NCBI GenBank assembly: GCA_029834535.1
Contig: JAQMWT010000483.1
Location: 1 to 49,515 of the forward strand
Source of the DNA: Chrysophaeum taylorii
Lineage: Eukaryota > Sar > Pelagophyceae > Pelagomonadales > Pelagomonadaceae
Reading direction: 5' to 3'
Length of the DNA stretch: 49,515 bases
Below, in pieces: positions 14,936-48,134 of the stretch. The position numbers were made by a program, and so were the translations under genes. Positions within the stretch are counted from its first letter, which is position 1, and every line of letters begins with the position of its first letter. The notes below the pieces were generated by a model. The model was not told the DNA's origin. It did not search any database and saw only the letters and a list, made by a program, of their open reading frames with translations.

Positions 14936-14943
14936 TCGGCGCC

Positions 14944-16377: not shown

Positions 16378-16385
16378 TCGGCGCC

Positions 16386-18824: not shown

Positions 18825-20652
18825 ATGTCAAAACCAAAACCAATATCCACCACGGATATTTACAAACAAGAACAAATCCTCGTTGATAAACTCAACTCCG
18901 GATTGCGCTTTCAAGACAATTCGACGAAGGTGAGCTTACAACTTGAGATGCTTCGCAGGCATATGACAAGTCCATACGTGGACGCGTTATTCTGCTTCGA
19001 TTCGTATGACGCTTACACCCGGAATGCTCCGGAGTATAACCAACTTCTCGAACACGAAGTTGATATCATTTTCGCTCAATGGAAAGCTGAAAAAATCAAC
19101 GAATTGCATTTACCTAATGAAGATGCCTTGCCTGATCATCTTAAGACTTGGCACGTCAACTCTTCCCATCAACTATCAGTTGATGTTCGTAATAATCTCG
19201 AACGACTGTTCTTTCAAGAGTCATATAACCTTGTTCGTCCCGAATTAAATGAGGATGTTAAGCGTGTTCTTTATTAGATACTCGATTCCCTAAGTCAATT
19301 GTGTATGATTCATCTCTTACTAACATATCCTCTACAGGTCTCTCTAATGCCGGTTGGATCAAACACTGCGAAACTTACGCTGGTTTCTTGTACACATTCT
19401 TCAATCTAGAATCGCAAGAACGCCCCGCTCTCGCTATGTGGCATCAATTAAAGAAAATATATGCACTTACTGCACATCCTAATAAACTACGTGCAGTAAT
19501 GCTTTTAGCTTACAATTACTATGAGACAGTGTCATGTACAGATGTCACTGAGCTTAAATCTCAGTTTAATCGAATGTCCTTAAATGTTAATTGGTATGCT
19601 CATGTATTTGTCGAACAACTCCTTGCTTTCCAAACTCAGGCAAAGCAATTAAATTATGACGAAGCATCAATCCAATTTAATGATTCCATAATCACACTCA
19701 AAGCTCACGAGGAGATCTATCGTCTATATGCTAATCCCTCGGATCACGAGCGCTATTCTCAGTCTTTATTGGAATGGTGTAAACTCTACGAGACACGCTC
19801 TGGGAACAACTCGACTCACGATCCTGAAGTTTTAAAGCTAGTTGATCCTAACGACGTTCGTCCGTTATTGGAGTTCCTGTTAAAGATATATAATGAAACA
19901 AAATTTTCATCTAACCGACGCTTGGATAAACCCGCATCATGGATTCCATACATCCCTGGTACTACCGCCACCAAGCCACCTAAGGTCTTATTGATGGATA
20001 CTATTCATCAATCCCACGACTCTCTAAACAATGCTTACTCATTGTTGGCTACTGTGGCTGGACAGTCCGGCTTTAACGCTCGTAAGCTTCGTAATGCAAA
20101 AGATAAAGCATCGACAATCTCACCCCGTGACACGTCGTACTATCGTTCACCCTCAAATTATAACGTTAAAGGCACCAGTTTCGACCGTCCTGTCTACTCA
20201 CACTCCTCTAACCGCAACTCACGCTCTAACATGTCTCTTATGGACCGGGCCACTTATCAAGTTGATCGTCTTCGCCACCTGTTTGGTAAATTACAGGACG
20301 CGAATCCGAATCCTTCCACCGATTCTAAAATGGTACAGGAAGAAATGAAGAGCTTACTGAGTACCCTTTGGACAACTGCCTCTCAAGCTTCGACACAGTC
20401 TTTAGATCCTGACGAAGCTACTCAAGTTCATCTCTACTTATCTCGAGTTGATACTATGTCCAATACCATATCGAACCTATTAGAAGCCGATAAAGAATCT
20501 CATGTTATAGAAGAAAAGTATCAAGCTGAAACTTCTGCTCCTGAAGCGTCCCCCAGTGATGCGGAGCAGAGGGGGACTGCTGAAACAGAGAAAATGTTTC
20601 ACACTTTTCTGTCCATCAAAGATGATGAAATCGATAACATTCCTCAGCCGCT
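18825..20652 (+). pseudogene. Copia family A gag
   Basis: Starts with ATG at 18825 (MSKPKPISTTDIYKQEQ). The first frame ends at a TAG (19275), but a one-base shift near 19266 leads into a second frame that continues LLDTRFPKSIVYDSS and runs as about 450 codons to the insertion at 20653. It aligns along its length with the gag of family B on the minus strand (33355-31666): KVSLQ, YDSYDAYTR, ETYAGFLYTFFNLES and SRSNMSLMDR against SRSNMKLLDR. No canonical zinc knuckle is visible in this part. The role would be the nucleocapsid shell of virus-like particles. Only the one-base shift and the insertion break it. Confidence 0.8.
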
Positions 20653-20860
20653 ACTAACTAACTAACTAACTAACTTCAGACCTCTCCCGAGCATGGGAGC
20701 CAGGCCGGACCGACAGGTGCCAGTCCGGAATCACGGGCCTGTAGACGAGGAGCGCCGAAAGGTCGGTCGGCGGAGAGTGACCATCAATTGTCGCCATGCG
20801 ACGAGGAGACCGCGATGTGACTGACAACCAACTCGTCGATAACCTTCCGTCTTCGCCCCT
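20653..20860 (-). repeat. TTAG-tailed dispersed repeat, copy B, in copia A gag
   Basis: Begins with ACTAACTAACTAACTAAC (complement of the TTAG tail) and matches about the first 200 bp of the family, ending where homology to the copies at 28.3 and 46.1 kb stops (CTTCCGTCTTCGCCCC). It is cut at the end opposite the tail, the pattern of target-primed reverse transcription. Confidence 0.85.
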
Positions 20861-21373
20861 AAACACATAAACGCCAAAGCCCAGAATGCTATTGTTCGTC
20901 GTCAAGCTCGGGAAACTTCCTCGCACTCCGAGGTCCCCAATACTCAGCCCAACGAAGATAATGAAGATGGTGCAGATCCCCCTGTGTTACTACCTAACTA
21001 ACTAACTAACTTCGGACCTCTCCCGGGCATGGGAGCCAGGCTGGGCCGGCAGTGGCCGGTCCAGGATCACAGAGCTACCGAAATTAAACAATGGTTTTAC
21101 ACTCGTCGTTGTGCCTTCCGAACAAACGCAAAGTTTCATGACACAGTACGTGTTTGGTCAAAGCTCGACACATGCCTGTTATGCAACAATGCTCAAACTG
21201 TACAATGAGTACAATCTACCGCTAATGACTACGCCAGGATATGCTGACACGTGTGCTTCTCAGCATGTATTAATTTTAAACGTCACGCTGATCCAATACA
21301 TATCGTTAAACTACCCGAGTCCTTGTCACCCGCTATCCAGACTGCTACGGATACTTAGAGTATCACACATGCC
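20861..21373 (+). pseudogene. Copia A gag C-terminal region
   Basis: After the insertion the gag reading resumes (INAKAQNAIVRRQARETSS, then EDNEDGADPPVLLP) up to the next insertion. Taking that out with one CTACC copy keeps one frame open to 21377. A neighbouring frame reads WFYTRRCAFR and LDTCLLCNNAQ, and a third reads CFSACINFKRHAD, which together look like a disrupted Cys/His zinc-binding region. Which frame is ancestral is unclear, so small indels are likely. The position (end of gag) fits a nucleocapsid domain. Confidence 0.45.
20995..21074 (-). repeat. TTAG-tailed dispersed repeat, short copy C with CTACC duplication
   Basis: Tail complement TAACTAACTAACTAAC, then TTCGGACCTCTCCCGGGC, 80 bp in all. 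Direct 5-bp repeats CTACC flank it (20990-20994, 21075-21079). It ends at the same internal point as copy A (7656-7737), so these two may be a short subfamily. Confidence 0.8.
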
Positions 21374-22734
21374 ATGATTATAAGAACCGTCATTCCCGCT
21401 CTCCCAAAGCATCCGAACGTGGGATATGTAAAGCTAGATGTTGCGCTTTTCCTACCAAAGCAAAACGACCATAATGATCCCGATCTGCACATCATCAGCA
21501 TGACTCAATGGGGAGAAGATGAACTTGGTATACATCTTTATGGGGTTGAATTTAAAGGACATTCATATATCCAGAGTAAAATTGACGACAACGTCAAGAT
21601 CACTTTGTTTAGATTAAGTAACTTGTTGCCTACTCTCCCAATTTATTCGCTACAACAAGCGAAAGCGCGTAAAATGGAACTTCGCTCATTACAGTTCAGA
21701 TTAAGTGCTTTTAACGAACAACGCGAAATGCTTAAGCTATATTCCAACCTTCTCGAACGCGTAATTTACGTACCATGGCTCAAAACCACATTGGAGTCAA
21801 TGCATTCGCAGCTGCCTTATATACGCAAGCACTTCTCACCTCCTGTATGACGCAAGGTTACTACACGTTTACTTCATACAGTAACTACGTCTCCTAGTTC
21901 ACGAACACCTACTGTAACTCTACTTTGTTCCGGGATGTCCACTCCTGCCTTCTTGGCTTGCGCTTCTAATAACTCGCAAATCAACATAAACGTTAAAGTT
22001 CTTGTTGAGAGCGACGAAAACCTCACGCATATGCTACGAAGACGTTTTGGTAATTCCATCGAAGTTTTCCCATCACTACCCAAGTTTCTCACATATCTCC
22101 ATCGAGCATCGGACACTGAACGTGCAAGATATTACACTGATATAGTGGAACTGACATCCCCATGCACAAATCGCAACATAATCAATGGGAGATCCATTTC
22201 AACTTTCGAGCGTGATATGGACGACTCCTTGTTTCCAAGTGCTCTAAGTGTACTTGAGCTTTTAAAGCCGCTTGTTCTTTTCATGGAAATGACGCCACCA
22301 CACTCCGCATCGTATGAATTTCATATACGAGTTGCTAATCTCATCTTCTCTACGATGCACTATACGGTGGATATATGTGACCGATTTCCATGCTATCTGT
22401 GTGGAGATTATCAAGCCAGAGAAAGATGGATCCTCGTTGCGCGCAAATATAATACCGGCCATCTAGATTTGCTTTCCTGGCCTAACAAACGAGTCACTTC
22501 CTTCCTGGATATCGCAGATCACGCTAACTCCATCAGTCGCAAGTTAATAGTCGACGAACCTTGGACGCAGGTCTTCTCCGACATACCATTCGTGTCCACA
22601 CCTAAAACCTACAACATCTTCAGTCGCACAGGATCCGTTCGTTTAACAGTGACTGAGCTCGAAACTTTAACCATGCTGTTTCTTCGTCTGCACTCAAACA
22701 AAACAGTCGAACATCCAAGTCAAAATGAAATGGG
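21374..22734 (+). pseudogene. Copia A gag-pol middle region, function unknown
   Basis: One frame is open from 21374 to 22756 except for a single TGA (21848-21850). It reads RTVIPALPKHPNVGYVKLDV, later LESMHSQLPYIRKHFSPPV, then after the stop RKVTTRLLHTV and on to CDRFPCYLCGDYQARERW, a possible C-x4-C-x2-C metal site. Removing one unit of the 28-bp tandem duplication (22707-22762) fuses this frame to the pol frame below, so gag-pol was probably one frame here. This region has no family match that I can name. It makes the segment before integrase much longer than the usual copia protease region. Confidence 0.55.
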
Positions 22735-22762
22735 TCGAACATCCAAGTCAAGATGAAATGGA
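22707..22762. repeat. 28-bp tandem duplication that breaks the copia A frame
   Basis: Units 22707-22734 and 22735-22762 (TCGAACATCCAAGTCAA...) differ by two bases. 28 is not a multiple of three. Deleting one unit joins the upstream and downstream frames. Confidence 0.9.
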
Positions 22763-25700
22763 GGGCATTTCCAACTTCCGCCTAGGATTCTTGACTAATT
22801 CAAGAAAACCTCTTGCTTGTATGAGATCTCCTATTGAACTCAAAGCTTTTGTGTTCCCCTATAAGATTATGGGACGTTTATTCTCAAAATCCATCACCTT
22901 ACCTGTGTCCTTTCGTATTACAACTATCGAATCTAACCAACCATCTCACAGCTTATTCTTAAATAAATCCTCTACTTCCTCCATCATTTACATCACCGGT
23001 GGAAGACACACAGGCGGAGACATAACAGTTTCTAACTCCTCTTCTAAATACCAGGCACATATAAATGCATTTGGTGAAACCTATACCTTCCTAACACATG
23101 ATACCGGAATCGATAAGACTGCCTCTCTCGATCCTGTTACCGGTTTTCTTTGGCTTTGCCAAGCATACCATCATAATAATGAAAATCAAGACACGCGTCG
23201 TCTAGTACAAACACTGGTTTCCTATACTTCACCTGTGCTTCACGATTCTTTCGTCTTCTACCCTCAGGAAAATCGTCTCGAATTTATCGATAAAATTTTT
23301 GCTTTAAGTGACATGCATCTGTCTCAAAGCAGATACCTTGGCTTTATTACATCGAGTGATAGGAAGATGGGTGCCAAAGTTCATTCTATATACACTCCCA
23401 CTCCTACCATTCGTGGGTTTGCTAACATGATCTTGTACGATCCACGACTCGATCGCATTCGACATTACTCAACTCGTGAATTGGCACGCGCCAATAATTT
23501 CACAGCGCACCAAATCAATTTTCTTTTGTCTTTGTCCCCGGACCTATGCTGTGACATAATCGCTAATGCTATTCCGGCTGGAACATATCATGTAATTTAT
23601 AAACATTTGTGTCAGCTTGTCTATGACTTGCGTAAATTAACGCTATCACCATCCTTTGACCCTGATCATGCTTCTCTAACCAAAAACTATAGGTCAGCCT
23701 TTTTCACAAATATATTCCCAACAGACACATCCTTAATATTACACCAGAGTTCCATTACAATGTTATACATTTCTAATAAAACACTTCCATGTTGTGATAA
23801 TCTTGCTTCTAACCACGAACTTCCACCTTTTCATCTCGATTCAGTAGCTCATGTCTTCCTCTCTAACACTTCGTCCGCAGATATATCATCTCCTAATAAA
23901 GAAAGACAAATTCCTCTCATAACGCCAAGACAGCTCCATGAGAAGCATGCGCCCTTCGATAAGAAAGTCCATGCCAGGGGCACCCTTGCATTTCGAGATG
24001 CGCAACAGCGAGCTACCAATTTTCACAACATTCACCATTCCAGTGATTATCAAGCCATAAAAGCTGTTCAGGTTATTGCCAGTCCTGGACACCACCCATC
24101 TGACGTACCCTACCGTAAGTTCTGTGTGGATTGTAGGATTCACAAAAAACGCTTTCCTCATCCACTCCACCTTATCAAGCAACCATCATTCGAAAAAAAT
24201 TTTCAACCTGGTGAAGCCTGGGCATGTGACGGTGGTTACGTCTCTGTGCTATCGGAATGGGGGTCCTTTCGACATATCATTGTTTTCAAGTGTCTCATTT
24301 CTAAATTTCTGTTAGTGTACTTTTGTCGTAGCACTAACTCCAGCGAATTTTGTAACGCCCTTGAGTTTGTCCGTAATTTTTGTTCTACTTATGTTCATGT
24401 ACAACTAAAACAAATACATTGTGATTCCTTTAAACCCCATTTATCTCAGCATGTTACAACCCCCTTCCGTGTGGAACATGGTATTAATATGTCCGCGTCC
24501 CCCCCTTACTTACATGTCTTTAATCATGAAGTCGAAGCCGCTGTTGGTCACATAGCCACTGCCGCGTCTACACGACTTAGGCATATCCTTAATGTATCCT
24601 ATAAAGGTCACCCCCTAACAGATCCAGCACCACACTACCCGTGGGCTGTTATACATGCTATCCAATCATATAATCTCCTTCCTAACGCTTCCCTCGAACG
24701 TATTTATAATAAAGTCCTAAGCCCCCAACAAGTTTTGTTGGATCAATGTAATGTTCCCCAACAGGACTACCTCAAACCCTTTGGTTCTGTTTGTTATTCG
24801 CATTTGGAACCCAACGAATTTCATAAATATGAGCCTCGATGTCGTCCTTACATCTATTTATGTGGTGCTAATGTCATAAACCCATTAATAACACCCCAGG
24901 TTAATCATTTAGCTGATGTTGTCCTTAATCCCGAAGGCGGCCAAGTCCGTGTCTCCTCTAAACTTACCTTTCCTCATCTCATTTCTAAAACTCCTCCTGA
25001 TTATGAACAACATCCCCCTCCCGCACCTCCGCCTGACATTCCCTTCTCTGTTCACAGCACCCCCAATGATGCGGCGCAGAGGGGGAATGCTACGTCCACC
25101 GACACTGAACACGAGAGGGGGATTCCTTATAATCTCCTTCCTAACGCTTCCCTCGAACGTATTTATAATAAAGTCCTAAGCCCCCAACAAGTTTTGTTGG
25201 ATCAATGTAATGTTCCCCAACAGGACTACCTCAAACCCTTTGGTTCTGTTTGTTATTTGCATTTGGAACCCAACGAATTTCATAAATATGAGCCTCGATG
25301 TCGTCCTTACATCTACTTATGTGGTGCTAATGTCACAAACCCATTAATAACACCCCATGTTAATCATTTAGCCGATGTTGTCCTTGATCCTGAAAACGGC
25401 CAAGTTCGTGTCTCCTCCAAACTTGCCTTTCCTCACCTAATTTCTAAACCCCCTCCTGATTATGAACAACATCCACCTCCCGCACCTTCACCCGCCATTC
25501 CCTTCTCTGTTCACAGCACCCCCAATGATGCGGCGCAGAGGGGGAATGCTACGTCCACCGACACTGAACACGAGAGGGGGATTCCTTCTTCTCCTACCCA
25601 TGCTCCATCTCCCGTTCCCGCATGTGCTCCAGCTGCTTCTGCACCCGCTGCTTCCGCCACCACACCTCCATCTGAAGTGTCCTCCAACACTTTGCCCCTT

Positions 25701-27833
25701 CTACCATCTTATCGGTCTCTCTATTCCCAGGATGTCCTCTGTCTCACCCGTGGTCCTCATCACCCTCAACCTCGTCGCAAAACCAATCTCAAGGACGTTC
25801 TTACTCGTATTGCTTCGCCAACTGTTGCCGCTTATAAACAAGCTGGTGGTACGCTTGCCGACTTCAAGTATGACCTCTCCAAGCAGTATATAACCTTTTG
25901 CGACCCCACCCTCCACTCCCTTCATATTGCTCATGGCATCCACTGGACGGCTATACCTCCAGAGGGGGAATTCACACAATCCCTTCATCATCACGTTCAC
26001 CAAGCACTTTCTCACTCTTCTTCCGCTCTGTGTCATGGGAGCTTTAGCCATCCATTGCCGGAGATCACTCCTGTTCATCTCTTTGACGACTTCAGCCTTA
26101 CAGACTTTCACCTTCCTCGTGCTCTCGTTCATCTCATTTCCGAACATGCTCACGCTTTTCAAGTTCCTCCCGCTCAATATGCTTATGCTTTGCTCACACC
26201 CCATTCCATTTTGGATCATAATGACGCTTCTTATGGTGCCTCTGAGCCTCACCTCTCCGCCATCGAAGACTACATCCTCGTACAATCTCATTACATTGAG
26301 GCCCACTTTGGCGATGCCCCTCTACTAATCGTTCAACTTGTCGAAGATCCCGATTATGCTCATACTACTGATCAGGTCGCTTCTTACGCAATTACCCATC
26401 TTACGACGGCTAACGACCCCAGCGCTGTTGGTCCGGACGAATACAAAATTCAAGCCAAAGATATCAAAATTGATGAATATGAGTTGAGCTGCCTCAAAGG
26501 TCTCTCAGACGCCGATCGTAAAGCTTACATCTCCGCTCTCTCCAAAGAGATTTTTGATATTGTTAAGTTTGGCTGCTTTAAACTCGCGTTGCCAATGGTC
26601 AACTCAAAGCCTATTGACACCCGCCTCGTCCTACGTATAAAAACCAATGCTGCCGGTCAATATCTTAAACATAAAGCACGCCTGGTCCTACGAGGATTCT
26701 TAGCCTCTCTGGGCACTGATTTTTTCAACACATTCAGCCCCATGGCACAGCTTACTGGCATCCGTTGTGTTCTGGCGCTAGCAGCCCATCTGCGACTTCC
26801 CGTCTACCACGTCGACGTATCTAACGCTTTTGTTCAAGCTCCTATCGACTCTCATGTCTATGTTAAACTGCCACAAGGTATTTACCTTCTCGATCCTGAA
26901 GATACCAAATACCAAGGCCGTCGTCTCCCAAAACTACTTAAATCTCTTTATGGATTACGACAAAGTCCTGCCCTTTGGAATCAAACTATAAATAGCTTCT
27001 TTGATTCCTTAGGCTATACACGCTTCCGAACTGATACGTGCATTTACGCTAAAGTCCAAGCTGACGCTACATTTTTAATTTGCACGCTCTCAGTGGATGA
27101 CGTAGTCATCACTTGCACTTCGGAAACTCTACGTCGTGAATTCCAGCAAGCCCTAAAAAAGGAATACCCAGTCGACACCTTTGAAGAAGTCCATACTCTC
27201 TTAGGCATGCGCATCACGCGTACTACTGACGGTTCTATCTCACTGGACTGTCAAGCTAAACTTGATGCATTGTTCGAAGAGTACCCCATTTTAATGCAGT
27301 TACGTCCCACTTCTACACCGATGTCACCATCAACCACGTATAAAACTGGAGAGCCATCTTCTGACATGGACAAGTTTATTCTTCATGCCTTCTCCACCTC
27401 ACTCGGCAATCTCACTTTTGTACAATTGGCCTGCCGCCATGATCTATCCCAAAGCCTTCGCCGTTGTTCCCGAGGAATGCATAATCCAGCATTTCTACAT
27501 GTTCAAGTACTAACAGGTACGCTCCGCTACTTACGTAAGCCCGAAAATCGCAATCTTCGACTCTGGTACTACTCTGGCTCTTTCGCTCTAATGGACCATC
27601 TTAGACTTCTTATCGGCAATCGCACTGACATGGCAACCATGTTGGATTACACTAAAGAACAAGTCAATTCAGGTAACTTTGATCCATTGGTCGCGTTCGT
27701 TGATGCCGATAACGCACCCTCTTATGAACAAGACCGCAAGTCTACAACCGGTTACGCCATCTTTTTGTTCGGCTCTCTCATCACTTGGAAGTCTAAGCTA
27801 CCGCCTATCACAGCTACTTCTACGCAAGTATGA
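22725..27833 (+). CDS. Copia family A pol: (protease), integrase, reverse transcriptase, start of RNase H
   Basis: A 1702-codon open frame. Residues 1-400 are largely unassigned. A weak protease-like region is RYLGFITSSDRKMG followed by RGFANMILYDPRL. The expected D-S-G-A is not present. Integrase: zinc-binding FCVDCRIHKK, then core Asp in AWACDGGYV (24228), Asp in IHCDSFKP (24423) and Glu in FNHEVEAAVG (24528 or 24534). A 153-residue in-frame duplication follows (24669-25586), then a Pro-rich linker. RT: LVLRIKTNAAGQYLKHKARL, PVYHVDVSNAFVQAPI, SLYGLRQSPALWN and SVDDVVI (27090-27110). RNase H starts with VAFVDADNAPSYEQDRKSTT. The frame ends at a TGA caused by one extra base (27829). It would copy the RNA and insert the cDNA. 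Confidence 0.92.
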   Translation: MKWVEHPSQDEMEGISNFRLGFLTNSRKPLACMRSPIELKAFVFPYKIMGRLFSKSITLPVSFRITTIESNQPSHSLFLNKSSTSSIIYITGGRHTGGDITVSNSSSKYQAHINAFGETYTFLTHDTGIDKTASLDPVTGFLWLCQAYHHNNENQDTRRLVQTLVSYTSPVLHDSFVFYPQENRLEFIDKIFALSDMHLSQSRYLGFITSSDRKMGAKVHSIYTPTPTIRGFANMILYDPRLDRIRHYSTRELARANNFTAHQINFLLSLSPDLCCDIIANAIPAGTYHVIYKHLCQLVYDLRKLTLSPSFDPDHASLTKNYRSAFFTNIFPTDTSLILHQSSITMLYISNKTLPCCDNLASNHELPPFHLDSVAHVFLSNTSSADISSPNKERQIPLITPRQLHEKHAPFDKKVHARGTLAFRDAQQRATNFHNIHHSSDYQAIKAVQVIASPGHHPSDVPYRKFCVDCRIHKKRFPHPLHLIKQPSFEKNFQPGEAWACDGGYVSVLSEWGSFRHIIVFKCLISKFLLVYFCRSTNSSEFCNALEFVRNFCSTYVHVQLKQIHCDSFKPHLSQHVTTPFRVEHGINMSASPPYLHVFNHEVEAAVGHIATAASTRLRHILNVSYKGHPLTDPAPHYPWAVIHAIQSYNLLPNASLERIYNKVLSPQQVLLDQCNVPQQDYLKPFGSVCYSHLEPNEFHKYEPRCRPYIYLCGANVINPLITPQVNHLADVVLNPEGGQVRVSSKLTFPHLISKTPPDYEQHPPPAPPPDIPFSVHSTPNDAAQRGNATSTDTEHERGIPYNLLPNASLERIYNKVLSPQQVLLDQCNVPQQDYLKPFGSVCYLHLEPNEFHKYEPRCRPYIYLCGANVTNPLITPHVNHLADVVLDPENGQVRVSSKLAFPHLISKPPPDYEQHPPPAPSPAIPFSVHSTPNDAAQRGNATSTDTEHERGIPSSPTHAPSPVPACAPAASAPAASATTPPSEVSSNTLPLLPSYRSLYSQDVLCLTRGPHHPQPRRKTNLKDVLTRIASPTVAAYKQAGGTLADFKYDLSKQYITFCDPTLHSLHIAHGIHWTAIPPEGEFTQSLHHHVHQALSHSSSALCHGSFSHPLPEITPVHLFDDFSLTDFHLPRALVHLISEHAHAFQVPPAQYAYALLTPHSILDHNDASYGASEPHLSAIEDYILVQSHYIEAHFGDAPLLIVQLVEDPDYAHTTDQVASYAITHLTTANDPSAVGPDEYKIQAKDIKIDEYELSCLKGLSDADRKAYISALSKEIFDIVKFGCFKLALPMVNSKPIDTRLVLRIKTNAAGQYLKHKARLVLRGFLASLGTDFFNTFSPMAQLTGIRCVLALAAHLRLPVYHVDVSNAFVQAPIDSHVYVKLPQGIYLLDPEDTKYQGRRLPKLLKSLYGLRQSPALWNQTINSFFDSLGYTRFRTDTCIYAKVQADATFLICTLSVDDVVITCTSETLRREFQQALKKEYPVDTFEEVHTLLGMRITRTTDGSISLDCQAKLDALFEEYPILMQLRPTSTPMSPSTTYKTGEPSSDMDKFILHAFSTSLGNLTFVQLACRHDLSQSLRRCSRGMHNPAFLHVQVLTGTLRYLRKPENRNLRLWYYSGSFALMDHLRLLIGNRTDMATMLDYTKEQVNSGNFDPLVAFVDADNAPSYEQDRKSTTGYAIFLFGSLITWKSKLPPITATSTQV
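24669..25586. repeat. 459-bp in-frame tandem duplication inside copia A pol
   Basis: 24669-25127 and 25128-25586 are near-identical direct copies (153 codons each) that begin YNLLPNASLERIYNKV and end TDTEHERGIP. The few differences include many silent changes and a few replacements (PPPDIP against PSPAIP). The unit covers the C-terminal integrase tail and a linker. The reading frame is preserved. Confidence 0.95.
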
Positions 27834-28272
27834 GAGTGAACTCATTGCCCTTAATATGTGTGCCGATGATGTGGTCTGGTTACGCAAATTGTTAACGGAA
27901 ATGGCATTCGCTATAAATCCTCAATACTATCTTCGTCAACCTTCAGGGAAAGATTTGTTACTAGATTATGATGCTCACGACAACCCCCTCCCATCGGACA
28001 TGTCGTTCATACGTAACAGTCCTATACTTGGAGACTCTGCTTCTGCTATCCATCTATCAAATAATCCCGACAGTGCGACTAAGGCCAAAGCTATCAGCAC
28101 ACGCTGGTTCCGTATTCGCGACTACGTACAGCTAAAACGTATACGTCTACATCATGTTTCCGGTACTCAAAACATTGCTGATGGATTTACTAAACCCTTC
28201 GGAGCTCCGCTCTTCAGCAGATTCCGCACGTTACTTGGCTTACAACAACCCATAGTCCAACAAGATGGTTGA
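27834..28272 (+). pseudogene. Copia A RNase H, shifted by one base from pol
   Basis: Continuation of pol in the next frame. STQ followed by YESELIALNMCADDVVWLRK restores the standard copia RNase H sequence if one G near 27829 is ignored. Further motifs: GDSASAIHLSNNPDSATKAK, STRWFRIRDYVQ and HHVSGTQNIADGFTKPF. The domain removes the RNA template strand. Only the single-base lesion separates it from pol, so a sequencing error is possible. Confidence 0.88.
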
Positions 28273-28344: not shown

Positions 28345-28710
28345 AACTAACTAACTAACTTCAGACCTCTCCCGAGCATGGGAGCCAGGCCGGACCGACA
28401 GGAGCCAGTCCGGAATCACGGGCCTGTAGACGAGGGGCGCCGAAAGGTGGGTCGGCGGAGAGTGATCATCAAGCTTGTCGCCATGCGACGAGGAGACCGC
28501 GATGTGACTGACAACCAACTCGTCGATAACCTTCCGTCTGCGCCCCCCGGCCATACCCCGTCCCACTGCGAACGTCCCGGCTGCCAACCGGCCCGCCCGG
28601 GAGGCGAATAGGTGCCAACCTACGCCGGGAGGGCGGATGCCCTCGCAAGGCTCAGGATTCATGACGCACCGTCCTCCATCACAACAACGCGGTCGGCGAT
28701 CAGGGTAAGG
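28345..28710 (-). repeat. TTAG-tailed dispersed repeat, full-length copy D
   Basis: Tail complement AACTAACTAACTAACTT at the left, far end CAGGGTAAGG at the right. It matches copy E (46102-46459) along its whole length, and copy F for the tail-proximal 290 bp. It lies between the pol and ORF3 genes of copia A. On the minus strand a frame ending HARERSEVS is open through it, as in copy F. Confidence 0.88.
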
Positions 28711-36361: not shown

Positions 36362-36640
36362 TGTGGCGGCAACTCCTGACCGCTAAGGCTTACCCTCCCT
36401 TCTCGAAGCTTGATACCCGTTCAACGGGACGCCTTTGCCTACTTTCCTAGTGACATCATACCTCTCCCTCGAGAGAAGCATTCTTGTCGCATTCTTGCTA
36501 TCATATACCACCTCTCCATCTTGTTGAGAGGCTTGATGAGGCCCCGAGTCCGTGTTTTCCTCGTTCAATGAGGTCTAGGACGAGTCGGTGAGTACCCCCT
36601 TTGTCACCAGGGGGTCGGGAGTGTTTTTTCTGTGCCGCCA
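36362..36640 (+). repeat. Gypsy copy 2 5' LTR, 279 bp
   Basis: TGTGGCGGCA at the start and TGTGCCGCCA at the end, TG...CA with inverted ends. It matches the 3' LTR closely, apart from a roughly 30-bp segment present only in the 3' copy (near 44760-44793). The primer site may begin at TGGTGGAGG (36645). The tRNA was not identified. Confidence 0.92.
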
Positions 36641-37070
36641 TACGTGGTGGAGGATATGAGATCGTGCGACTATATCGGTCGCCGACGAGCGAGTGCCGCC
36701 GTACGTATTGTATTACGTGGTCCGGATTTGCACGTGTGCCCTGATCAAGCACGCGGAGTTCAAGTGGACCGGTTTGCGTTGAGAATATACGCGGACTTTG
36801 TTTTGTTCGTGCGTTCCGAGAGACGACGAACACGCGTGCGAGTTGGAAATCGCAGCGCATTCACCCGGGAATTGATTTTGGTATAGCTGAACGGCGGAAG
36901 CTGTTAGCGAGTGGGATCGCTACCCACGGGCATTTTTGGATTGCCAGCGGATCAGAATTCCGTGAGTGCTGTTTTTACAGCGACAGATAGCGCTGTTGTG
37001 ATCAACGTGCGTTACTTCTAGTGATCGAATCCGGACTTGTTTCGAGATTCCTCATCGACATTGATACAAT
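36641..37070 (+). other. Gypsy copy 2 leader
   Basis: About 430 bp between the LTR and the first small ORF. No gene seen apart from the putative primer site at its start. Confidence 0.6.
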
Positions 37071-37175: not shown

Positions 37176-37909
37176 CTTCCGATCAACAAGCTAAGCAAGA
37201 TGCGGATAAGCCGTCTGGGAATACGGTTCCGCTGATCTTACGAGATCCTTCTTGGTGGTGCAAGAAGACGTGCAAGGAGTGCGGATACTTCTGGTCCACC
37301 CATGATGAAGATGAACACGGAAATCGCGTGGTTTGCAACCGCGATCCGGACCGTTATCACTGTGCGATGTGGAAGCGCATTCGGAAATACAAAAAGCAAC
37401 CCATATCGTGTTCCGATTGGGAGAAGCGTGACGATGCATCTAGTGCGCACGCCACGCGCGGATCGGAACCTACAAATGAAATACAAACGGCCCTCACCGA
37501 GCTTGGAACCACGATGGCGACCATGGTGAGCGAGGTCAGAGGCATCAAAGATAGCAAGTCGTCTTCTACACGACAGCGAGACAGCGAGACGGACGATCAC
37601 CTTCTAGACGATCGTCGCGCCGACACCGAAGTAAGAGCCTTGATCAAACGGCCAATAGTCTTATATCAAGCCCGAGCCCCCGCCGTCGCCGCCATACCCG
37701 GAGCTCTAGTCGCAATTCGCGCCGGCGCAGACGTCATCGACAGCGCGATGACGAATATGACGGAGGCCGATATCAGGATAGTTCGGGACATTCGAGCGCA
37801 ACTTTCGCGTTCCAATCTCTATGCGAAGCGCGGCCATCGTCGGGAGTTGTTCTTTACCCGACGGCGCGCCCCGCCCGAGTCTCCGATGATGTTGCCGATG
37901 CCGCTGTGA
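37172..37909 (+). CDS. Gypsy gag-like protein with Cys-rich N-terminus
   Basis: 245 codons. Residues 29-64 are Cys/His-rich (WWCKKTCKECGYFWSTH, then VVCNRD and YHCAMW), a possible metal-binding fold unlike the usual CCHC knuckle. The middle part is charged and Ser-rich, the end Arg/Pro-rich. The position between leader and protease makes it the gag candidate. The start overlaps the preceding small ORF, and its stop overlaps the next frame (GTGATGAGC, 37906-37914). I cannot identify a capsid fold by eye. Confidence 0.55.
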   Translation: MTSDQQAKQDADKPSGNTVPLILRDPSWWCKKTCKECGYFWSTHDEDEHGNRVVCNRDPDRYHCAMWKRIRKYKKQPISCSDWEKRDDASSAHATRGSEPTNEIQTALTELGTTMATMVSEVRGIKDSKSSSTRQRDSETDDHLLDDRRADTEVRALIKRPIVLYQARAPAVAAIPGALVAIRAGADVIDSAMTNMTEADIRIVRDIRAQLSRSNLYAKRGHRRELFFTRRRAPPESPMMLPMPL

Positions 37910-38595: not shown

Positions 38596-39640
38596 TTGGA
38601 CATATTTACAGACGACGAGACAGGCCGAAGTTCGCAACGACTTTAGGCGTGGATGGAATGGCTGATGTCTCCTATATTTGTCGTGGGATGGTCGACAAAC
38701 TGACAAAGGATAATATAATCCTCGACCGAGGCGATCTCCCAGTCGAGCGCACCCTGTACGGGTCAGGATTGAATAAGACGACTATCCACAAATGGGTCGC
38801 ATTGCGAAATGCGCTCGCGGACGACAGTTGCCATTGTGGCCGATACTAATCACCTATTTCTGCTGGGAGCGCGCGATATTCGGGTGTTGGGAGCCATAGT
38901 GGACTACCCGCGAAATCGCATTGCGTTTCTCCGCACACAAGTCGCCTATGGGCGCAAGAAGTTAAAGGTGCAGGATCGACGAGTCGATTCTCCGATTTTG
39001 AAGTTCAGAACAACTTATGACGAGCGCAACCCCGTGGTAGTTCAGGTTTATGGGCAACAGCACCATGCGATGCAAAAGAGCCTGAGCACAGTTGAGAACC
39101 GCGTTTACGCTCGCTTGTGCAAGATTGAAGACCTCCAGCGTCCACCGCCGAAACGAGCGGGAGCTTCGACGACTTGGGGAGTCCCTACAGTTACGACTTC
39201 TCAAAGTTCGAACAGCGATGCCTATGAAGTGGTAGCCTATGCTGCACGCACGATGAAGGTCGAGCCTGGGCGCACTTACTGCGTGCCAGTCGCTCTTTCA
39301 AAGCCCATGGAAACTGGGCAAGTTTTCGTTGCTACGTCTTCTGGATACGAGCAACTTGGGGTAGTCGATGGAATGTGTTCTGCTCCTGAGGATCACGATA
39401 AGTTCGCAGCTCGAGTGGCGATATCCTCTACCCAGGATGTGCCGACCGTGATTACTCAAGGTGAAGTTCTCGCTTTGGGCGATATTGTTCGTTTTGATGA
39501 CGAGCTGAATGCTGAGACGGTCGACGATTTAACGAAGGATGGTGAAGCCGAATCTGACAAGGCTAGCCTATCGTTCACTGTTTCGGTCGCAAGCCATCTG
39601 ACTCAAGGCGATGCGGCTCCCGAACCGATGCTTTTGAGCT
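38433..39640 (+). pseudogene. Gypsy aspartic protease and pre-methyltransferase region
   Basis: Two frames join near 38820 by a one-base shift. The first has RPKFATTLGVDGMADVSYI, in the place of the retropepsin D-T/S-G-A motif but reading D-G-M-A. The second begins TVAIVADTNHLFLLGARDIR and continues GAIVDYPRNRIAF, the second half of a retropepsin (the I-L-G-x-D and A-x-x-D-x-x block). A segment typical of gypsy pol between protease and RT follows (KVEPGRTYCVPVALSKP, then ITQGEVLALGDI). Another frame change near 39600-39640 leads to the methyltransferase frame. The role is polyprotein cleavage. The altered active-site triplet may mean it is inactive. Confidence 0.7.
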
Positions 39641-39797
39641 CGGTGCAGAGGCGTCTCCTTCTGCCGATAAGAATAAGAATTCTAGTCGAGAATCGCTCGG
39701 TAACGACGATTTCGACCGACGAACCGACGAGGAGGAAAAGAAGTGCCGAGAAGTTACAGAAGGCGAGATTCGCCGAAGGTTTGAAAAAGTCCACTGG

Positions 39798-40979
39798 GTG
39801 CCGATCACGTATCGCAAGGTTGTGATGCTTTTTAGCGGCGCCGGTGGCAGTACTTTAGGACTGCAACGAGCGAATGAGTTGTGCGGGACGTCGTTTCGAG
39901 TCGTCCTTGCTCTTGACTCTTCAACAGCTGCCAACAAGATTCATCAGAAGAATTTTCCGAAGATACCTGTGGTTCAGCACACGCTCTGCGGACGATATGA
40001 CTCGACCCTCCGATTGATCAAGGCTTATTTGCCTGAAGCGGAATGGTCATCGTCGATGTGTATAGCGTCTCCACCCTGCGTTCATTCAGCACTCTGCAAC
40101 TTGACATCCAGAGATGTTGGCAGGGGAGTTACGGCCACTAATTGGACGATGAAGCTGTGCAAAATGGCTGGCTTCATGATGTGGCTGATTGAACAGGAGG
40201 CGTCCATTATTTCTTATATAGCGCGCTTACACCCTTACGTGTACGTCGTCAATTTTCATGATATCACGCCCACTTTGATGAGCTCTCGCGTGCGATTGTT
40301 GGTTTCCAGTCACCCACTGCACTTGCAAGAGGCTCCGAAGACATGTGCGAATATGCAACAAAAATTTGCTGCAGCTTTAGGTTACGCTCATGAACGCCAC
40401 CTGCTCCAGCTGAATAATCTCGGCTCGTCCCGAGAAGCAACAGATACGGCTTACACCGTTACGCGAGTTCCTCTTCGTTTGGGACCGCACCGCTCGGACA
40501 CTCAGCCTTTGACTCTCGAGATGACGGCCGAGTTGCTCACGATGCCGCTGGACCATGATTGGGCTGGCTTGTCTAAGACAGATTCGTTCAAGCATTTAGC
40601 GTCTGTCGTCCCTCCAGACACTCTTGCGATTTTAGCAGTCGATCTGCACAACTCCGTGACCAGAGGTTTCCGCCAAAGTGGCGAAGTCCTGCCGACCGCG
40701 TTGAGCCCGACAGATCGATCCTTTGAGCAGTATTTGCGAATTACCGACACCACCCTTCGTCACGTGCAGATTCCGCTGTTAAATACGCGTACTCGTGTCG
40801 TTAAGTGGGTGTCAAAAGATGATCTCCAGGATCCCACTAAATGGGAACCGCCAGAAGTCCCTATGCTTCCGCTTCCAACAGATGCGCCGGGGACGGCTCA
40901 TGCTTTTTCTGCTGCCCCCCCCGACAATCAAAAGTGGACGTTCCGCCGGATCCTGAACCTGAACAGGAGCCGAAAGTAA
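39798..40979 (+). CDS. Cytosine-C5 DNA methyltransferase domain of gypsy pol
   Basis: Frame open from about 39600 (ESLGNDDFDRRTDEEEKK upstream); numbering here is from 39798. Motif I VVMLFSGAGGSTLGL (8-22, AdoMet loop); acidic residue of motif II in VVLALDSS (35-42); motif IV IASPPCVHSA (89-98) with catalytic Cys94 (codon 40077-40079); motif VI as WLIEQEAS (129-136, Glu for the ENV motif); motif VIII SSRVRLLV (162-169); motif IX QPLTLEMTAELLTMP (236-250); motif X LASVVPPDTL (267-276). Length and order fit a compact Dcm/DNMT catalytic domain. It would methylate C5 of cytosine in DNA. It lies between protease and RT, and the frame passes into RT by a -1 change at a C8 run (40915-40922), so it was probably part of the polyprotein. 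No chromatin-reader domain is visible. Methyltransferases captured by retrotransposons are known from dinoflagellates and charophyte algae. Confidence 0.9.
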   Translation: MPITYRKVVMLFSGAGGSTLGLQRANELCGTSFRVVLALDSSTAANKIHQKNFPKIPVVQHTLCGRYDSTLRLIKAYLPEAEWSSSMCIASPPCVHSALCNLTSRDVGRGVTATNWTMKLCKMAGFMMWLIEQEASIISYIARLHPYVYVVNFHDITPTLMSSRVRLLVSSHPLHLQEAPKTCANMQQKFAAALGYAHERHLLQLNNLGSSREATDTAYTVTRVPLRLGPHRSDTQPLTLEMTAELLTMPLDHDWAGLSKTDSFKHLASVVPPDTLAILAVDLHNSVTRGFRQSGEVLPTALSPTDRSFEQYLRITDTTLRHVQIPLLNTRTRVVKWVSKDDLQDPTKWEPPEVPMLPLPTDAPGTAHAFSAAPPDNQKWTFRRILNLNRSRK

Positions 40980-43210
40980 GGAGCGAGCCGAATGTGCGCG
41001 TCAAAGGTGAAAAGATCAATAAGAGCCACCCTGAGGTGAGGTTCAAATACGAAGAAAAGTTCGATGTGCCATGGAAGGATGCGCCGCGCGACGCGGACGG
41101 TGTACCGTTACCGCAGACTCCGGAGCACGTCAAGGACAATGAGGCGATGAAAGTCGTAACTCCGACGAAGGAAGAAGTCGAAAAGGTTGTTCGAGAACTG
41201 GGAATTCCCGACAACCCGCATCTGGATGAGGATGCGAAGATGATGTTGAGCCACTGCGTGCAATACGCGTGGGCCTTTTTTGATCCGATTATGAGACCCG
41301 TGGACTCGCCACCGGTTTCTCTACGATTTAAAGACGCAAACCCACGACCGATCAAGATGACGCCTTATAGGTTGACGCCAGCAAAGCTCGAGTGTCTCAG
41401 AAAGCAGATCACTGAGTGGTGTCGCGATGGAGTCATCCGACCGGCGAACTCTCCGTGGGGATTCCCTGTACTGATGCTGCCTAAGAAGGGAGCAGAGGCC
41501 GGGACGTCGAATGCTTTTCGTGCTGCAGTTGACTTGCGTCAGCTCAATGATCAGCTGGTCAATGACAGTTGGCCGAATATTCGTCAAGATGATGCTTTGG
41601 CTTTTCTTGCCATGCGCCGTTGGCGGACGTGCATTGATATTCGATGGGGTTATCATAACCTACGTTTGGACGCCGCCGCTCAGGACGCCGTTACGATGGT
41701 TAGTCCACTTGGAGCCCATAGTTTCTTGCGCTTGCCTCTGGGAGTAAAAACAGCAGGAGCTCTCTTCTGTAAGCAGATGGCTAGCGATTTGTCCACATGG
41801 ATGTATAAGGACTTGGTCGCGTTTGTCGACGATATTATGATGGGATCGGATGAACTCCACCGACATTTACAAGTCTTGATTGAAGTGCTGTGCCATTTAG
41901 CGCAGCGAGGATATAGTGGACGAACTTCGAAGTTCCACCTCCTCAAGGATGAAATCGAGTTTTTGGGACACATTTCGACTCCGGAAGGCTTGAAGCCGAA
42001 TCCCAAGACGTTAGAAGCGTTGCAGCAGATGCCGATTCCCGGTACGTTGCCGAACACGTCCCCGAAGACCCAGATTCGATCTTTCATCGGCATGAGCAAC
42101 TATTGCCGCCGATATGTGAAGAATTATTCGAAGATTGTGGAGCCGCTGAGGCGATTGTGTCTTGAAGGCGTTAAGTTTGAGTGGACGCCTGAGTGCCAAA
42201 AGGCATGGGACACGATCATCGAAGCTTTGGTGGACTCTCGCGGAGTTTATCATCCTGACTACGATCTTCCTTTTCAGATCCGCTCGGATGCTTCCAAGGA
42301 TGGTCTGGGCGCGTATCTTTTTCAGCTCGTGGAAGTCAAGGACGAAACCGGCAAGGTGACACGAGAGGAACGAGTAATTGAGTATTGGAGCCGAGCTGTG
42401 CCGAAAGAGATGCGGAACTATGAGCCTCGCCGGCTAGAGCTACTGGCGGTTATTCTTTCTCTTGAGCATTTCCGCTCTTATATCGAAGGTCACAAGACGA
42501 TCCTTGAAACGGATCATCGCAACTTGACGTTTTTACGAAAGGCGAAGCACTCGTCTGGGCAGTTGGCTCGATGGGCGATGCGGCTCACCAATTTTGATCC
42601 TGAATTGGGTTACAAACCAGGGAATTCGCCGGGAATGAGTATCCCTGACTGTCTCTCTCGCAATCCTATCGATCATGTCATCGAGACGGATGAGTTTGGT
42701 GAACCCTTGAACCACGCGTATCTAGTGTGCCAAGAACTCCCTCGCCCTGTCGATGATGAAGGAGTACCTTTACCTGCGTGCCATGTCATTCTGTCGTTTG
42801 TTACGACTGAGTTACATGTGGAGGAAGAAGAAGAGGATCTCGATTATCCGATGCAATTGGTCACGTCTCATGCTACGAGACAACGTCAGAAGCAACGTCT
42901 GCAGACCCAACCTAGTATTTTCCGTGATGCCGATGATTACCAAGAGTACATCGACAAGATCCCGGATAATTTGACTTTGGAAGAGATAGCCAAAGAGCAG
43001 ATCACTGATGCTACTTGCGAGGACATTCGTTATCGCATGGCTCAGGGCCATTCTCTTCGTCGGTATGGAGCCAATTATCGCTATCAAGTGGTGAAAGGAG
43101 TTCTCTACCGTGCCGCACCTGACTTGCACCCGATGATAGTCGCACCCCGAACTTTACGGACGCGCATCATCCGATTGTACCATGAATCTCAATGGTGGTC
43201 ACATGAGTCG
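40920..43210 (+). CDS. Gypsy copy 2 reverse transcriptase and RNase H
   Basis: After the C8 run the frame gives VPPDPEPEQEPKV and a linker, then RT: PYRLTPAKLECLRKQI, GVIRPANSPWGFPVLMLPKK, RAAVDLRQLND, CIDIRWGYHNLRL, FLRLPLGVKTAGALF and the catalytic FVDD box (41822-41833), followed by GLKPNPKT and FIGMSNYCRRYV. RNase H: RSDASKDGLGAYLFQ (Asp), EPRRLELLAVIL (Glu) and LETDHRNL (Asp). A roughly 190-residue linker leads to the integrase zinc finger, where the frame is lost near 43195 (YHESQWW). About 90 kDa in length, as usual for gypsy. Copies RNA to DNA. The sequence is closely related to copy 1 where they overlap. Confidence 0.93.
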
Positions 43211-44203
43211 TCAAAGTACAGTGCAGTCGATACTTGAACGTTTTCGGTGGCCCCACATGTCTAATGAGGTGGGTGTTTATATTGCTGGTTGCATAGTGTG
43301 CAAGAAAGCTCGAACGCCTGAACCAAAGAGAGCAGGTCTGCTTCAGCAACCGGTGTATGATGGTGATTGCGTCGTCCTTTGTATGGATTTGTTTGGACTT
43401 TGCCCAGTGCTGGTCCAGAGACATATCTGATCATTTTTTTTGATCCATTTTCTCATTTCTTGATTCTTGACGTACTACACCATAAGACTGCTGAGTCAAT
43501 CCTCGAGTCTTTTGTCGCGAATATATTACTCAAAGGTTATCTACCTCAGAGGATTCGTACCGACAATGGGAAAGAGTTCGTCAACAAGTTGATGGAAGAG
43601 TTTTGTCATCTCTTCAATGTTCGGTATAGTACCACGATTCCGTATCATGCTCAGGCTAATCCTGCGGAAAGGGTCGACCGCTTTATCAAGGCTTTCCTCC
43701 GTGCGTGTCTTCAAAACCGCAAGATCACGGACTGGCCCGAATTCGCGGAGTACATTGCTTTTTGCTACAATCGTAAGTTTGTTCCGTGAACTCAGATTTC
43801 ACCTTTCATGCTTCGTCTCAACCGGCAGCCTCTATTGCCAACAGATTATACGATCATGGATCTTGATGTCCGCCGCCTGCCGAAAACTTGCTCCGATGTT
43901 GTGGCAGAGACTCACGAGAGGTTGAAATTCTATGCCGCTACGGTGAACGAAGCTCGCGAGAAGGCTCTTCGTAAACAACGTCTCGCTTACAATGCGGACC
44001 GTGTCGATGTGGAGTATGAAGAAGGTTCACATGTTCTGCTCTACATCCCTTTCCTTCCGAACGAGCTTCGACCGGAATGGCGGGGTCCATTCGTCATTTT
44101 GGAACGCTTGTCTCCGGTCACTTACAGGATTGAGTCTCTTGATTCTCCTCCTGAACGCCGCTGTGTTCATGTCAGTCAGATCACCCCTGTGAGAAGTTTA
44201 TGA
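43182..44203 (+). pseudogene. Gypsy copy 2 integrase, two shifts and one stop
   Basis: Frame 43182-43430 carries GGHMSRQSTVQSILERF and the zinc-binding CIVCKKARTPEPKR, then MDLFG (first Asp). After a shift near 43400 the core continues: ETYLIIFFDPFSHFLIL, RTDNGKEFVN (second Asp) and NPAERVDRFIKAFL (Glu). A TGA at 43787 replaces the Gly of copy 1 (FIPGTQISPFML), and the frame resumes at once through LRPEWRGPFVIL (GPY/F-type block) to 44203. DDE integrase that inserts the cDNA. Inactive as it stands. Confidence 0.88.
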
Positions 44204-44583: not shown

Positions 44584-44892
44584 TGTGGCGGCAACTCCTG
44601 ACCGCTAAGGCTTACCCTCCCTTCTCGAGGCTTGATACCCGTTCAACGGGACGCCTTTTCCTACTTTCCTAGTGACATCATACCTCTCCCTCGAGAGAAG
44701 CATTCTTGTAGCATTCTCGCTATCATATACCACCTCTCCATCTTGTTGAGAGGCTTGGTGAGCGTGAGCAAGGTGTGTGGCGAGCATATCCGACCCCGAG
44801 TCCGTGTTTTCCTCGTTCAGTGAGGTCTAGGACGAGTCGGTGAGTACCCCCTTTGTCACCTGGGGGTCGGGAGTGGTTTTTCTGTGCCGCCA
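44584..44892 (+). repeat. Gypsy copy 2 3' LTR, 309 bp
   Basis: TGTGGCGGCA start after the polypurine-like CAGGGGAGTCT, and TGTGCCGCCA end. Nearly identical to the 5' LTR, with an extra roughly 30-bp segment (GTGAGCAAGGTGTGTGGCG... near 44760-44793). The differences show that the copy is not brand new, or that LTRs recombined. Confidence 0.92.
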
Positions 44893-45123
44893 TATACGAA
44901 CCTGTGTGTGGACGACGACGGCGATTTCGACAAGGCTTTTGCCAAGTACCGGGAAAAGAAGGCAGAGGCCGAAGAAAAGAAGTTGGAGATGGAGAAGGAG
45001 CGGATGGAAGTGGATAAGGCGCGGATCGAGAAAGATGCAGCGAACGAAGCGGCCAGAATCGCAGTGCAGGCAAAGCAGATGGAACTCATGATGGCAATGT
45101 TTAACCAGAAGAACCAGTCTTAG
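44893..45123 (+). pseudogene. Harbinger Myb-like protein, right part (coiled coil)
   Basis: Frame TNLCVDDDGDFDKAFAKYRE, then a long Lys/Glu coiled coil (EEKKLEMEKERMEVDK) and the end MFNQKNQS with TAG at 45121. It continues in frame the left part that stops at 36361 once gypsy copy 2 is removed. Coiled coils at this place are usual for the Harbinger accessory protein and serve dimerisation. Confidence 0.75.
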
Positions 45124-46101: not shown

Positions 46102-46459
46102 CCCTTACCCTGATCGCCGACTGGGGTTGCGATGGAGGACGGTGCCCCATGAATCCTGAGCCTTGCGAGGGCATCCGCCCTCCCGGCGTAGGTTGGCACC
46201 TATTCGCTTCCCGGGCGGGCCGGTTGGCAGCCGGAACGTTCGCAGTGGGACGGGTATGGCCGGGGGCGAAGACGGAAGGTTATCGACGAGTTGGTTGTCA
46301 GTCACATCGCGGTCTCCTCGTCGCATGGCGACTAGCTTGATGGGCACTCTCCGCCGACCGACCTTTCGGCGCTCCTCGTCCACAAGCCCGTGATTCCGGA
46401 GTGGCTCCTGTCGGTCCGGCCTGGCTCCCATGCTCGGGATAGGTCTGAAGTTCGTTAGT
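46102..46459 (+). repeat. TTAG-tailed dispersed repeat, full-length copy E, TACTT duplication
   Basis: Starts CCCTTACCCTGATCGCCGAC and ends GGTCTGAAGTTCGTTAGT. Direct repeats TACTT flank it (46097-46101, 46460-46464). 358 bp, homologous to copy D over its full length. It lies between the Harbinger transposase relic and the right end of that element. Confidence 0.88.
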
Positions 46460-46735
46460 TACTTGCGTAACCGCACACGTGTCACGCTTTTCCAGGCGTT
46501 CTCGGAAAAGCAACGGACTATAAACGGCTCTATTTTATTTTTTTCGGCTCTATTTCATATCTATCCTGTGGAACCTCACTATTACTTTACTGTGGAGCCA
46601 AAAAAAATGGTAAAGTAGAACTTTTACATTACAAAGTCTGTCCGGTACGTCACCCAAGTCGATCAATCGAGTTGAAAGGTACGTCTAAACGTCACCCAAG
46701 TCGTCCAATCGATGGCTGGGCCAAGCCTGTAGACG

Positions 46736-47847: not shown

Positions 47848-48134
47848 TCCCGGCGTAGGTTGGCACCTATTCGCCTCCCGGGCGGGCCGGTTGGCAGCCG
47901 GAACGTTCGCAGTGGGACGGGGTATGGCCGGGGGGCGCAGACGGAGGGTTATCGACGAGTTGGTTGTCAGTCACATCGCGGTCTCCTCGTCGCATGGCGA
48001 CAAGCTTGATGGTCACTCTCCGCCGACCGACCTTTCGGCGCTCCTCGTCTACAGGCCCGTGATTCCGGACTGGCTCCTGTCGGTCCGGCCTGGCTCCCAT
48101 GCTCGGGAGAGGTCTGAAGTTAGTTAGTTAGTTA
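47848..48134 (+). repeat. TTAG-tailed dispersed repeat, 5'-truncated copy F, GTCGAAA duplication
   Basis: Begins inside the family sequence (TCCCGGCGTAGGTTGGCACC) and ends GGTCTGAAGTTAGTTAGTTA. Perfect 7-bp direct repeats GTCGAAA flank it (47841-47847, 48135-48141). A tail at one end, variable truncation at the other and a target duplication are the signature of target-primed reverse transcription. Confidence 0.92.

Follow-up and report, generated by a model that had tools for sequence, protein, structure and literature searches.

The window analysed here, the 49,515-nt contig JAQMWT010000483.1 from the 70.8-Mb genome of Chrysophaeum taylorii, carries on its forward strand a Ty3/gypsy LTR retrotransposon whose gag-pol polyprotein includes a C5-cytosine methyltransferase (MTase) after the protease-like part and before the reverse transcriptase (RT). 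The element is bounded by direct repeats, the 5' LTR at 36362..36642 (ends TGTGGCGG...CCGCCATA) and the 3' LTR at 44584..44894, which differ by 9 mismatches over 281 aligned bases and by one 30-base indel; no target-site duplication was seen around them. The gag-like region contains a Cys/His-rich cluster (37271..37363), read from the sequence as a possible zinc knuckle, for which no Pfam match above cut-off was obtained. It is followed by a protease-like region (38649..38929), recognised by its motifs (VDGMADVSYI ... LLGARDI..GAIVDY) and split over two frames, by an open frame of 470 residues with the PF00145 MTase (39567..40979), and by a C8 run (40915..40922) where, in this copy, the frames of MTase and RT diverge. 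Further downstream, Pfam identifies the RT (RVT_1, 41480..41974, in the ORF 40841-43237), RNase H (RT_RNaseH, 42257..42595), the integrase core (rve, 43400..43648, with the frame broken on either side) and the integrase C-terminal domain (Integrase_p58_C, 44084..44179). A protease match in Pfam was found neither in the window ORFs nor in the protein of a second genomic copy, L063, and the order PR-RT-RNase H-IN that, with the LTRs, defines the element as Ty3/gypsy therefore includes PR by motif only. An earlier note on this DNA had placed a methyltransferase between the protease and RT of an LTR-bounded gypsy element, and the PF00145 match, the downstream RVT_1 and RNase H matches and the LTRs bear out this arrangement. 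The window copy is defective: frame changes break up the protease region, the sequence leading into the MTase, the junction of MTase and RT, and the integrase region.

The MTase domain, whose borders were set by eye, covers 39816..40661. Motifs I (39819-39869), II (39906-39923) and IV (40068-40079, SPPC with the catalytic Cys) have profile support and are, as sequence assignments, secure. Because the C-terminal half lacks profile support, the VI-like (LIEQEA, 40185-40202), VIII-like (SSRVRLLVS, 40281-40307), IX-like (40509-40550) and X-like (SVVPPDTL, 40602-40625) motifs are a reading by eye, helped by spacing and conservation. The series I, IV, VI, VIII, IX and X proposed in the earlier note thus stands for I and IV, including SPPC, and is a reading for VI to X, with motif VI being EQE and not the ENV expected of PF00145 enzymes. 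The Glu of this motif lies 38 residues from the catalytic Cys (37-47 residues in the reference enzymes, of which 13 of 14 could be measured) and 32 residues from the RxR (33-52 in the references). An alternative motif VI offered by the aligner, at a spacing of 58 residues, was judged less likely than the EQE site. Conservation was scored over 50 copy rows, comprising 30 of subfamily 1 (the window and one near-duplicate pair included) and 20 of subfamily 2. Of these rows, 50/50 have the catalytic Cys, 49-50/50 the motif-I glycines, 49/50 the motif-VI Glu and 50/50 the two motif-VIII Arg. Homology with the other copies mostly begins at residue 28 (39648) and runs to about 40922, so that the first residues of the ORF starting at 39567 are probably out of register.

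Profile and pairwise comparisons indicate that the gypsy-borne domain is, almost certainly, a diverged C5-cytosine methyltransferase. The earlier note had named PF00145 as the model against which 39600-40980 should be checked, and this family matched the window protein at 24.5-25.4 bits (cut-off 22), over residues 84-140 only. It was also matched by all 21 domains of alignment A1 (E<=1; best 2.7e-6), which holds 21 of the 50 copy rows, L047 having been taken out for a stop codon. Within the 2933-aa protein of L063, the MTase scored 18.5 bits, under the cut-off. A weak match to DUF4964 was seen as well for 14 of the 21 A1 domains (best E 0.0025; where tabulated, the score fell short of the DUF4964 cut-off). 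Searched by tblastn with the window domain, plasmids yielded six records at E<=0.1, all six annotated as DNA cytosine methyltransferases, the best at E 1e-4 over residues 12-143; phages yielded two at E<=1, each a DNA methyltransferase (E 0.03 and 0.2). Comparison of A1 with 14 reference enzymes (nine from phages, four from plasmids and the host DNMT2) by hhalign gave a probability of 96% and an E of 2.9e-9 across motifs I-IV, a score that benefits from the four plasmid references having been chosen for resembling the query. A profile of the 14 references scored 36.8 bits on the N-terminal part, a value reached by 0/200 shuffles, and -0.9 and 0.0 bits on the C-terminal part of subfamilies 1 and 2 (2 and 3 of 200 shuffles, respectively). 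With the four plasmid enzymes left out, the remaining 10 references still gave 20.5 bits on the N-terminal part (0/200 shuffles), and -2.4 and -1.2 bits on the C-terminal part (30 and 7 of 200). The C-terminal half is where the target-recognition part should sit.

The gypsy MTase family has at least 90 copies in the genome, which fall into two main subfamilies and match at 74-97% identity. Had the domain been absent from other copies of the element, it could not have been regarded as part of it; a genome search with the MTase matched all of the best 90 of 1361 candidates that were scored, that is, the window and 89 other places. A single open frame, 2933 aa long in the sequence retrieved (3063 aa in the genome search), encodes the gag-like, protease-like, MTase, RT, RNase H, H2C2 and integrase core parts of L063 (the same copy as L059); motif I is at residue 1353, and ~300 residues separate the MTase from the protease-like motif. 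Five further RT copies were taken from outside the MTase list, and four of these have MTase sequence upstream; three of the four lack 73 to 184 N-terminal MTase residues and the other has a frame change. The fifth copy, L082, has an internal deletion that removes protease and MTase. Of 30 subfamily-1 copies examined (the near-duplicates L008 and L009 both counted), 20 could be resolved and 9 have MTase and RT in one frame; of 20 subfamily-2 copies examined, 19 were resolved and again 9 have a shared frame. In this frame comparison, 10/30 and 1/21 rows, respectively, were unresolved. The length of the C run at the junction could be read in 26 of 31 rows, where it ranges from 5 to 11; the other 5 rows had no anchor. 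Given the variable run length and the number of copies with both domains in one frame, the junction does not act as a constant frame switch, and the idea of a programmed frameshift fixed at the C run was rejected. The proposal of the earlier note that the MTase is part of the pol polyprotein, its frame passing into RT at a C8 run, holds in its first part, given the single frame of L063, and the frame does change at C8 in the window, whereas C8 itself is not a fixed feature.

The MTase is under purifying selection similar to that on protease and integrase. Between subfamilies, the MTase core has a dN/dS of 0.070 (Nei-Gojobori, median of 600 pairs), a value that is approximate because dS is about 1.6 and near saturation; the stretches on its two sides have medians of 0.13 and 0.28. 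Between L063 and L064, dN/dS is 0.46 for the gag-like part, 0.079 for PR, 0.071 for the MTase, 0.026 for RT and 0.091 for RH-IN, and the linkers before the MTase (overlapping its start) and after it are both at 0.19. A second copy pair gave 0.43, 0.098, 0.062, 0.016 and 0.121 for the same five parts. Pooled pN/pS of the MTase core between subfamilies is 0.16, the C half being at 0.19 vs 0.13 for the N half. Within subfamilies, the pooled values rise to 0.27 and 0.20, as expected because many copies are already decaying. In a sliding window, pN/pS dips to 0.13-0.20 over the MTase between shoulders of 0.30-0.37, and constraint is already looser in the window with motifs IX-X (0.30). The near-duplicate L009 was retained in the dN/dS and pooled pN/pS values, as in the motif, C-run and frame counts. 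Its place in Pol, this constraint and the kept catalytic residues together argue that the MTase very likely serves the element.

The gypsy MTase appears to belong to no recognised DNMT class, judged from matches to solved structures and from a tree with the host DNMT2 and DNMT5. The nearest solved structures are DNMT2 enzymes, matched weakly (E 0.09-0.19) over 59-89 residues at the N-terminal end; two PDB searches each gave four matches at E<=1, none of them a DNMT3 chain. A full-length likeness to DNMT2, such as that of the host's own DNMT2 (L031; E 4e-39), was not found for the gypsy MTase. The second host-type enzyme, L032, matches PDB chain 7r76 at E 3e-143; the chain is deposited as 'DNA repair protein Rad8' and is one that we take to be Cryptococcus Dnmt5, and L032 is accordingly identified by likeness as the host DNMT5. 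Both host enzymes share PF00145 with the gypsy MTase, and it nests with neither of them in the tree, where support is weak and branches are long.

PF00145 gave at least 57 matches above cut-off in the genome (among the best 123 of 474 candidates), none of them at the gypsy MTase places. No host-type DNMT beyond DNMT5 and DNMT2 was recognised among the 24 of these 57 that were read. All 22 read of the other 55 belong to one further family, termed family A (Copia-A), and the 33 unread matches align with a comparable portion of the profile. In family A, the C5-MTase-like nature of the domain is secure: LPC is present in 10/10 and an ENV-like motif in the 10 longer loci, and the 14- and 10-reference profiles score 32-33 bits (0/200 shuffles). 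Its median dN/dS is 0.165 (10 copies). It is called Copia-related because one relic (16113-16988) matches the integrase region of a Copia element in the window over 116 aa at E 1e-8. A proven Copia status was set aside, as no RT or integrase was found by Pfam in the relics tried, namely three window ORFs (relics or Copia-like) and two more; downstream of locus L042, no RT was seen by eye, and its ORF had no match to the Copia integrase region.

The Copia element of the window, whose integrase and Ty1/copia RT lie in one ORF (22671..27830, forward strand; RVT_2, 145 bits), has a domain of its own (21851..22753, same strand) with the motifs SG, SPC, ME and QARER. This family B, which can tentatively be read as C5-MTase-like, occupies at least 131 genome places, all scored places having matched, the window included. 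Its domain had no Pfam match and no plasmid match at E<=1, and hhalign gave a probability of 6.8%, yet motifs I, II, IV, VI and VIII align. The profile scores are 5.8 bits with 14 references (0/200 shuffles) and 2.3 bits with 10 (1/200), and median dN/dS is 0.048 (16 copies). The gypsy MTase has no detectable likeness to family B (hhalign 0.4%) or to family A (BLASTP E 0.17). In the tree, the only place where A and B were compared, these two are joined at 95/86, both on long branches, and A, B and the gypsy MTase weakly at 65/80. Given this lack of likeness and the weak tree, the MTase-bearing families may reflect one, two or three gains.

Retrotransposon-borne methyltransferases of dinoflagellates and charophytes were named in the earlier note, and both are on record, in Symbiodinium and Klebsormidium nitens (PMC5890265, in the portions available). 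The closest parallel described there is KnitGypsy-Dnmt3 of K. nitens, likewise an LTR Gypsy element with an MTase in the Pol ORF, several copies and purifying selection; the MTase of L063 is similarly in the Pol frame. In contrast to the present family, the KnitGypsy-Dnmt3 domain is a recognised DNMT3, for which no structure appeared here at E<=1, and its repeats are DIRS-like instead of simple LTRs (PMC5890265, same portions). Its host is a charophyte, whereas C. taylorii is a probable ochrophyte with further MTase-bearing families in the same genome. Symbiodinium also has many retroelement DNMTs in one algal genome and in more than one retroelement class, and those of SymbioLINE are likewise an orphan class; its carriers are, however, DIRS and LINE and not Gypsy, and its Copia elements are given as free of any DNMT in the available text (PMC5890265). 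A 2025 survey that cites de Mendoza et al. 2018 (PMC5890265) mentions DNMT3 as present in 'LTR Copia and DIRS' elements (PMC12344493, excerpt); PMC9998398 (excerpt) cites de Mendoza et al. 2018 as well. Another captured nucleic-acid methylation enzyme is the AlkB m6A demethylase of a Phalaenopsis Ty3/gypsy element; unlike the gypsy MTase, it erases an RNA mark and is encoded by an additional ORF of a 25-kb plant element (PMC9289625, excerpt). In Ectocarpus, an N4C- or N6A-type methyltransferase is reported in a Sola1 element (PMC12477816, excerpt).

The open-licence literature searched turned up no account of ochrophyte LTR elements that carry a C5-MTase. Homologues elsewhere were found neither in a protein search with the window ORF at E 0.001 nor with the A1 profile at E 0.01 (the best 7996-7997 of more candidates in both cases), nor with the MTase region of L063 at E 0.01. 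A pattern scan of IMG/VR returned 23 stretches, none of which was confirmed.

The preferred explanation, to which we assign a probability of roughly 0.55 as a whole, is that the MTase marks the element's cDNA. Once translated, the MTase would enter the particle together with RT and integrase, where the protease might cut it free, and would methylate cytosines of the new cDNA, or of the RNA-DNA intermediate, no later than integration, giving a copy that is marked when it joins the genome. The DNMT5 of the host, an enzyme of maintenance type elsewhere, could make the mark heritable, and a copy with an inherited mark might look like resident chromatin or be restrained in cis. For its substrate, the element's cDNA stands at a little under even odds. 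Methylation of cDNA has been argued for SymbioDIRS, in which the MTase lies beside RT in Pol as here (PMC5890265, in the part available), and DNMT5a is described as a maintenance enzyme in Cryptococcus, while in Phaeodactylum CG methylation disappears when it is lost (PMC9998398, excerpt).

Methylated copies might be expected to bear a footprint, and neither strong CpG depletion nor singleton C>T changes clearly enriched at CG were found in the copies examined. CpG o/e is 1.17 for the window element and 1.16 and 1.34 for two other copies, compared with 1.26 and 1.46 for two host gene loci, which are richer in GC than the elements; because the elements are at or below the host loci (lower in two of three cases), a mild CpG effect is possible. 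The LTRs have a CpG value of 0.78, but GpC is also low at 0.71. In subfamily 1, singleton C>T occurs at 12 of 4986 CG copy-sites (0.0024) vs 0.0027-0.0048 in CA, CC and CT. In subfamily 2, the CG rate (16/3896, 0.0041) exceeds those of CA (0.0022) and CC (0.0012) and not that of CT (0.0044). These are raw rates without a significance test, and L009, as a near-duplicate of L008, was left out of them. The points counted against the cDNA reading are the CpG o/e values, the C>T spectrum, the C half without profile support, EQE, the looser IX-X region and the L082 deletion.

A substrate of RNA is a less likely alternative, with perhaps one chance in several. Acting like DNMT2/TRDMT1, the MTase would then methylate the primer tRNA or the genomic RNA of the element, stabilising the RNA or tuning reverse transcription. 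Such a role is consistent with the weak structural likeness to DNMT2 (E 0.09-0.19) and with copies that lack a clear mutational sign of DNA methylation, and RNA methylation has been raised for a LINE-borne DNMT (PMC5890265, in the part available). However, the tree, although weak, does not group the gypsy MTase with the host DNMT2, and the six plasmid matches are annotated as enzymes acting on DNA cytosine. More doubtful still is a catalytically dead domain that serves as a nucleic-acid-binding part or structural spacer between PR and RT. EQE in place of ENV, a C-terminal half beyond profile recognition and its somewhat lower constraint (0.19 vs 0.13) would fit a dead domain, yet the near-invariant motif-I glycines, Cys and Glu and the usual Glu-Cys spacing of 38 speak against it. 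That a host gene landed by chance in a single copy, or that the domain reflects assembly artefact or contamination, has nothing in its favour beyond the broken state of the window copy and is ruled out for practical purposes by matches at 90 places spread over many contigs and two subfamilies, by the purifying selection seen in dN/dS and by the single uninterrupted frame of L063.

C5-cytosine methyltransferases are the type of enzyme that hosts use to silence jumping genes. The gypsy family is an independent case, after those of dinoflagellates and charophytes, of a retroelement that carries the type of enzyme used to silence it. What is new here is an apparently unclassed MTase in a Gypsy element, a probable ochrophyte host and two further MTase-like retroelement families, one secure and one tentative, which make MTase carriage recurrent in one genome. 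This genome is compact, and its own repertoire seems to consist of a maintenance-type DNMT5 and DNMT2. As these two alone were recognised, and Gypsy, Copia and Copia-related families have C5-MTase-like domains of their own, it is conceivable, if improbable, that retroelements are the host's only source of new cytosine methylation, set de novo in cis and remembered by the host. The role of such MTases for the element becomes directly testable in this genome by comparing young with old copies. As a side observation, a 17-base Aureococcus rRNA primer had no match in the genome; as the one match of a universal SSU site was mitochondrial and no nuclear SSU turned up, this negative carries no weight for the host's identity. 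The probable ochrophyte placement comes from a permuted 5S rRNA (RF02547) on the mitochondrial contig, a form that has been described for brown algae (PMC11528492, excerpt).

The two LTRs of the gypsy element that carries the C5-cytosine methyltransferase (MTase) within Pol (36362-36642 and 44584-44894) differ by a 30-base indel, and a target-site duplication flanking them was looked for and none was seen. Together, these features form a sequence pattern such as would be expected after recombination between copies. A second gypsy copy, spanning RT to integrase on the minus strand at 10011-12863 (DNA 74% identical over 770 bases), is truncated upstream of RT, and no MTase is detectable for it within the window. 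Several window elements are adjoined by a dispersed repeat of ~200-360 bases, present in both orientations at 20657-20859, 28345-28710, 46103-46464, and 47848-48133, with copies 94-98% identical.

Two further repeat families are associated with MTase-type domains. The window Copia element (19262-28269, plus strand) encodes, upstream of its integrase/RVT_2 ORF, a domain at 21851-22753 (plus strand) that is tentatively C5-MTase-like. At least 131 genome places, window included, match this domain (all scored places matched in the genome search), and its median dN/dS is 0.048 (n = 16 of the matched places). The other family, termed family A, combines a protease-like DGGAS motif with a clear downstream PF00145 domain bearing LPC and ENV motifs, and appears to be Copia-related, as judged by its integrase region only. 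All 22 loci read (L033-L042 and L101-L112, taken from 55 PF00145 places among the matches listed) belong to family A, relics of which lie at 14676-16652 of the window.

Among the 24 read of 57 PF00145 matches listed, the only host-type C5-MTases recognised were a DNMT5-like gene with a 2086-aa frame (locus L032, contig C621) and DNMT2 (locus L031, contig C634). Separately, locus L100 (contig C696) is mitochondrial, with a permuted 5S rRNA (RF02547 match, 44.5 bits) directly after the SSU rRNA.
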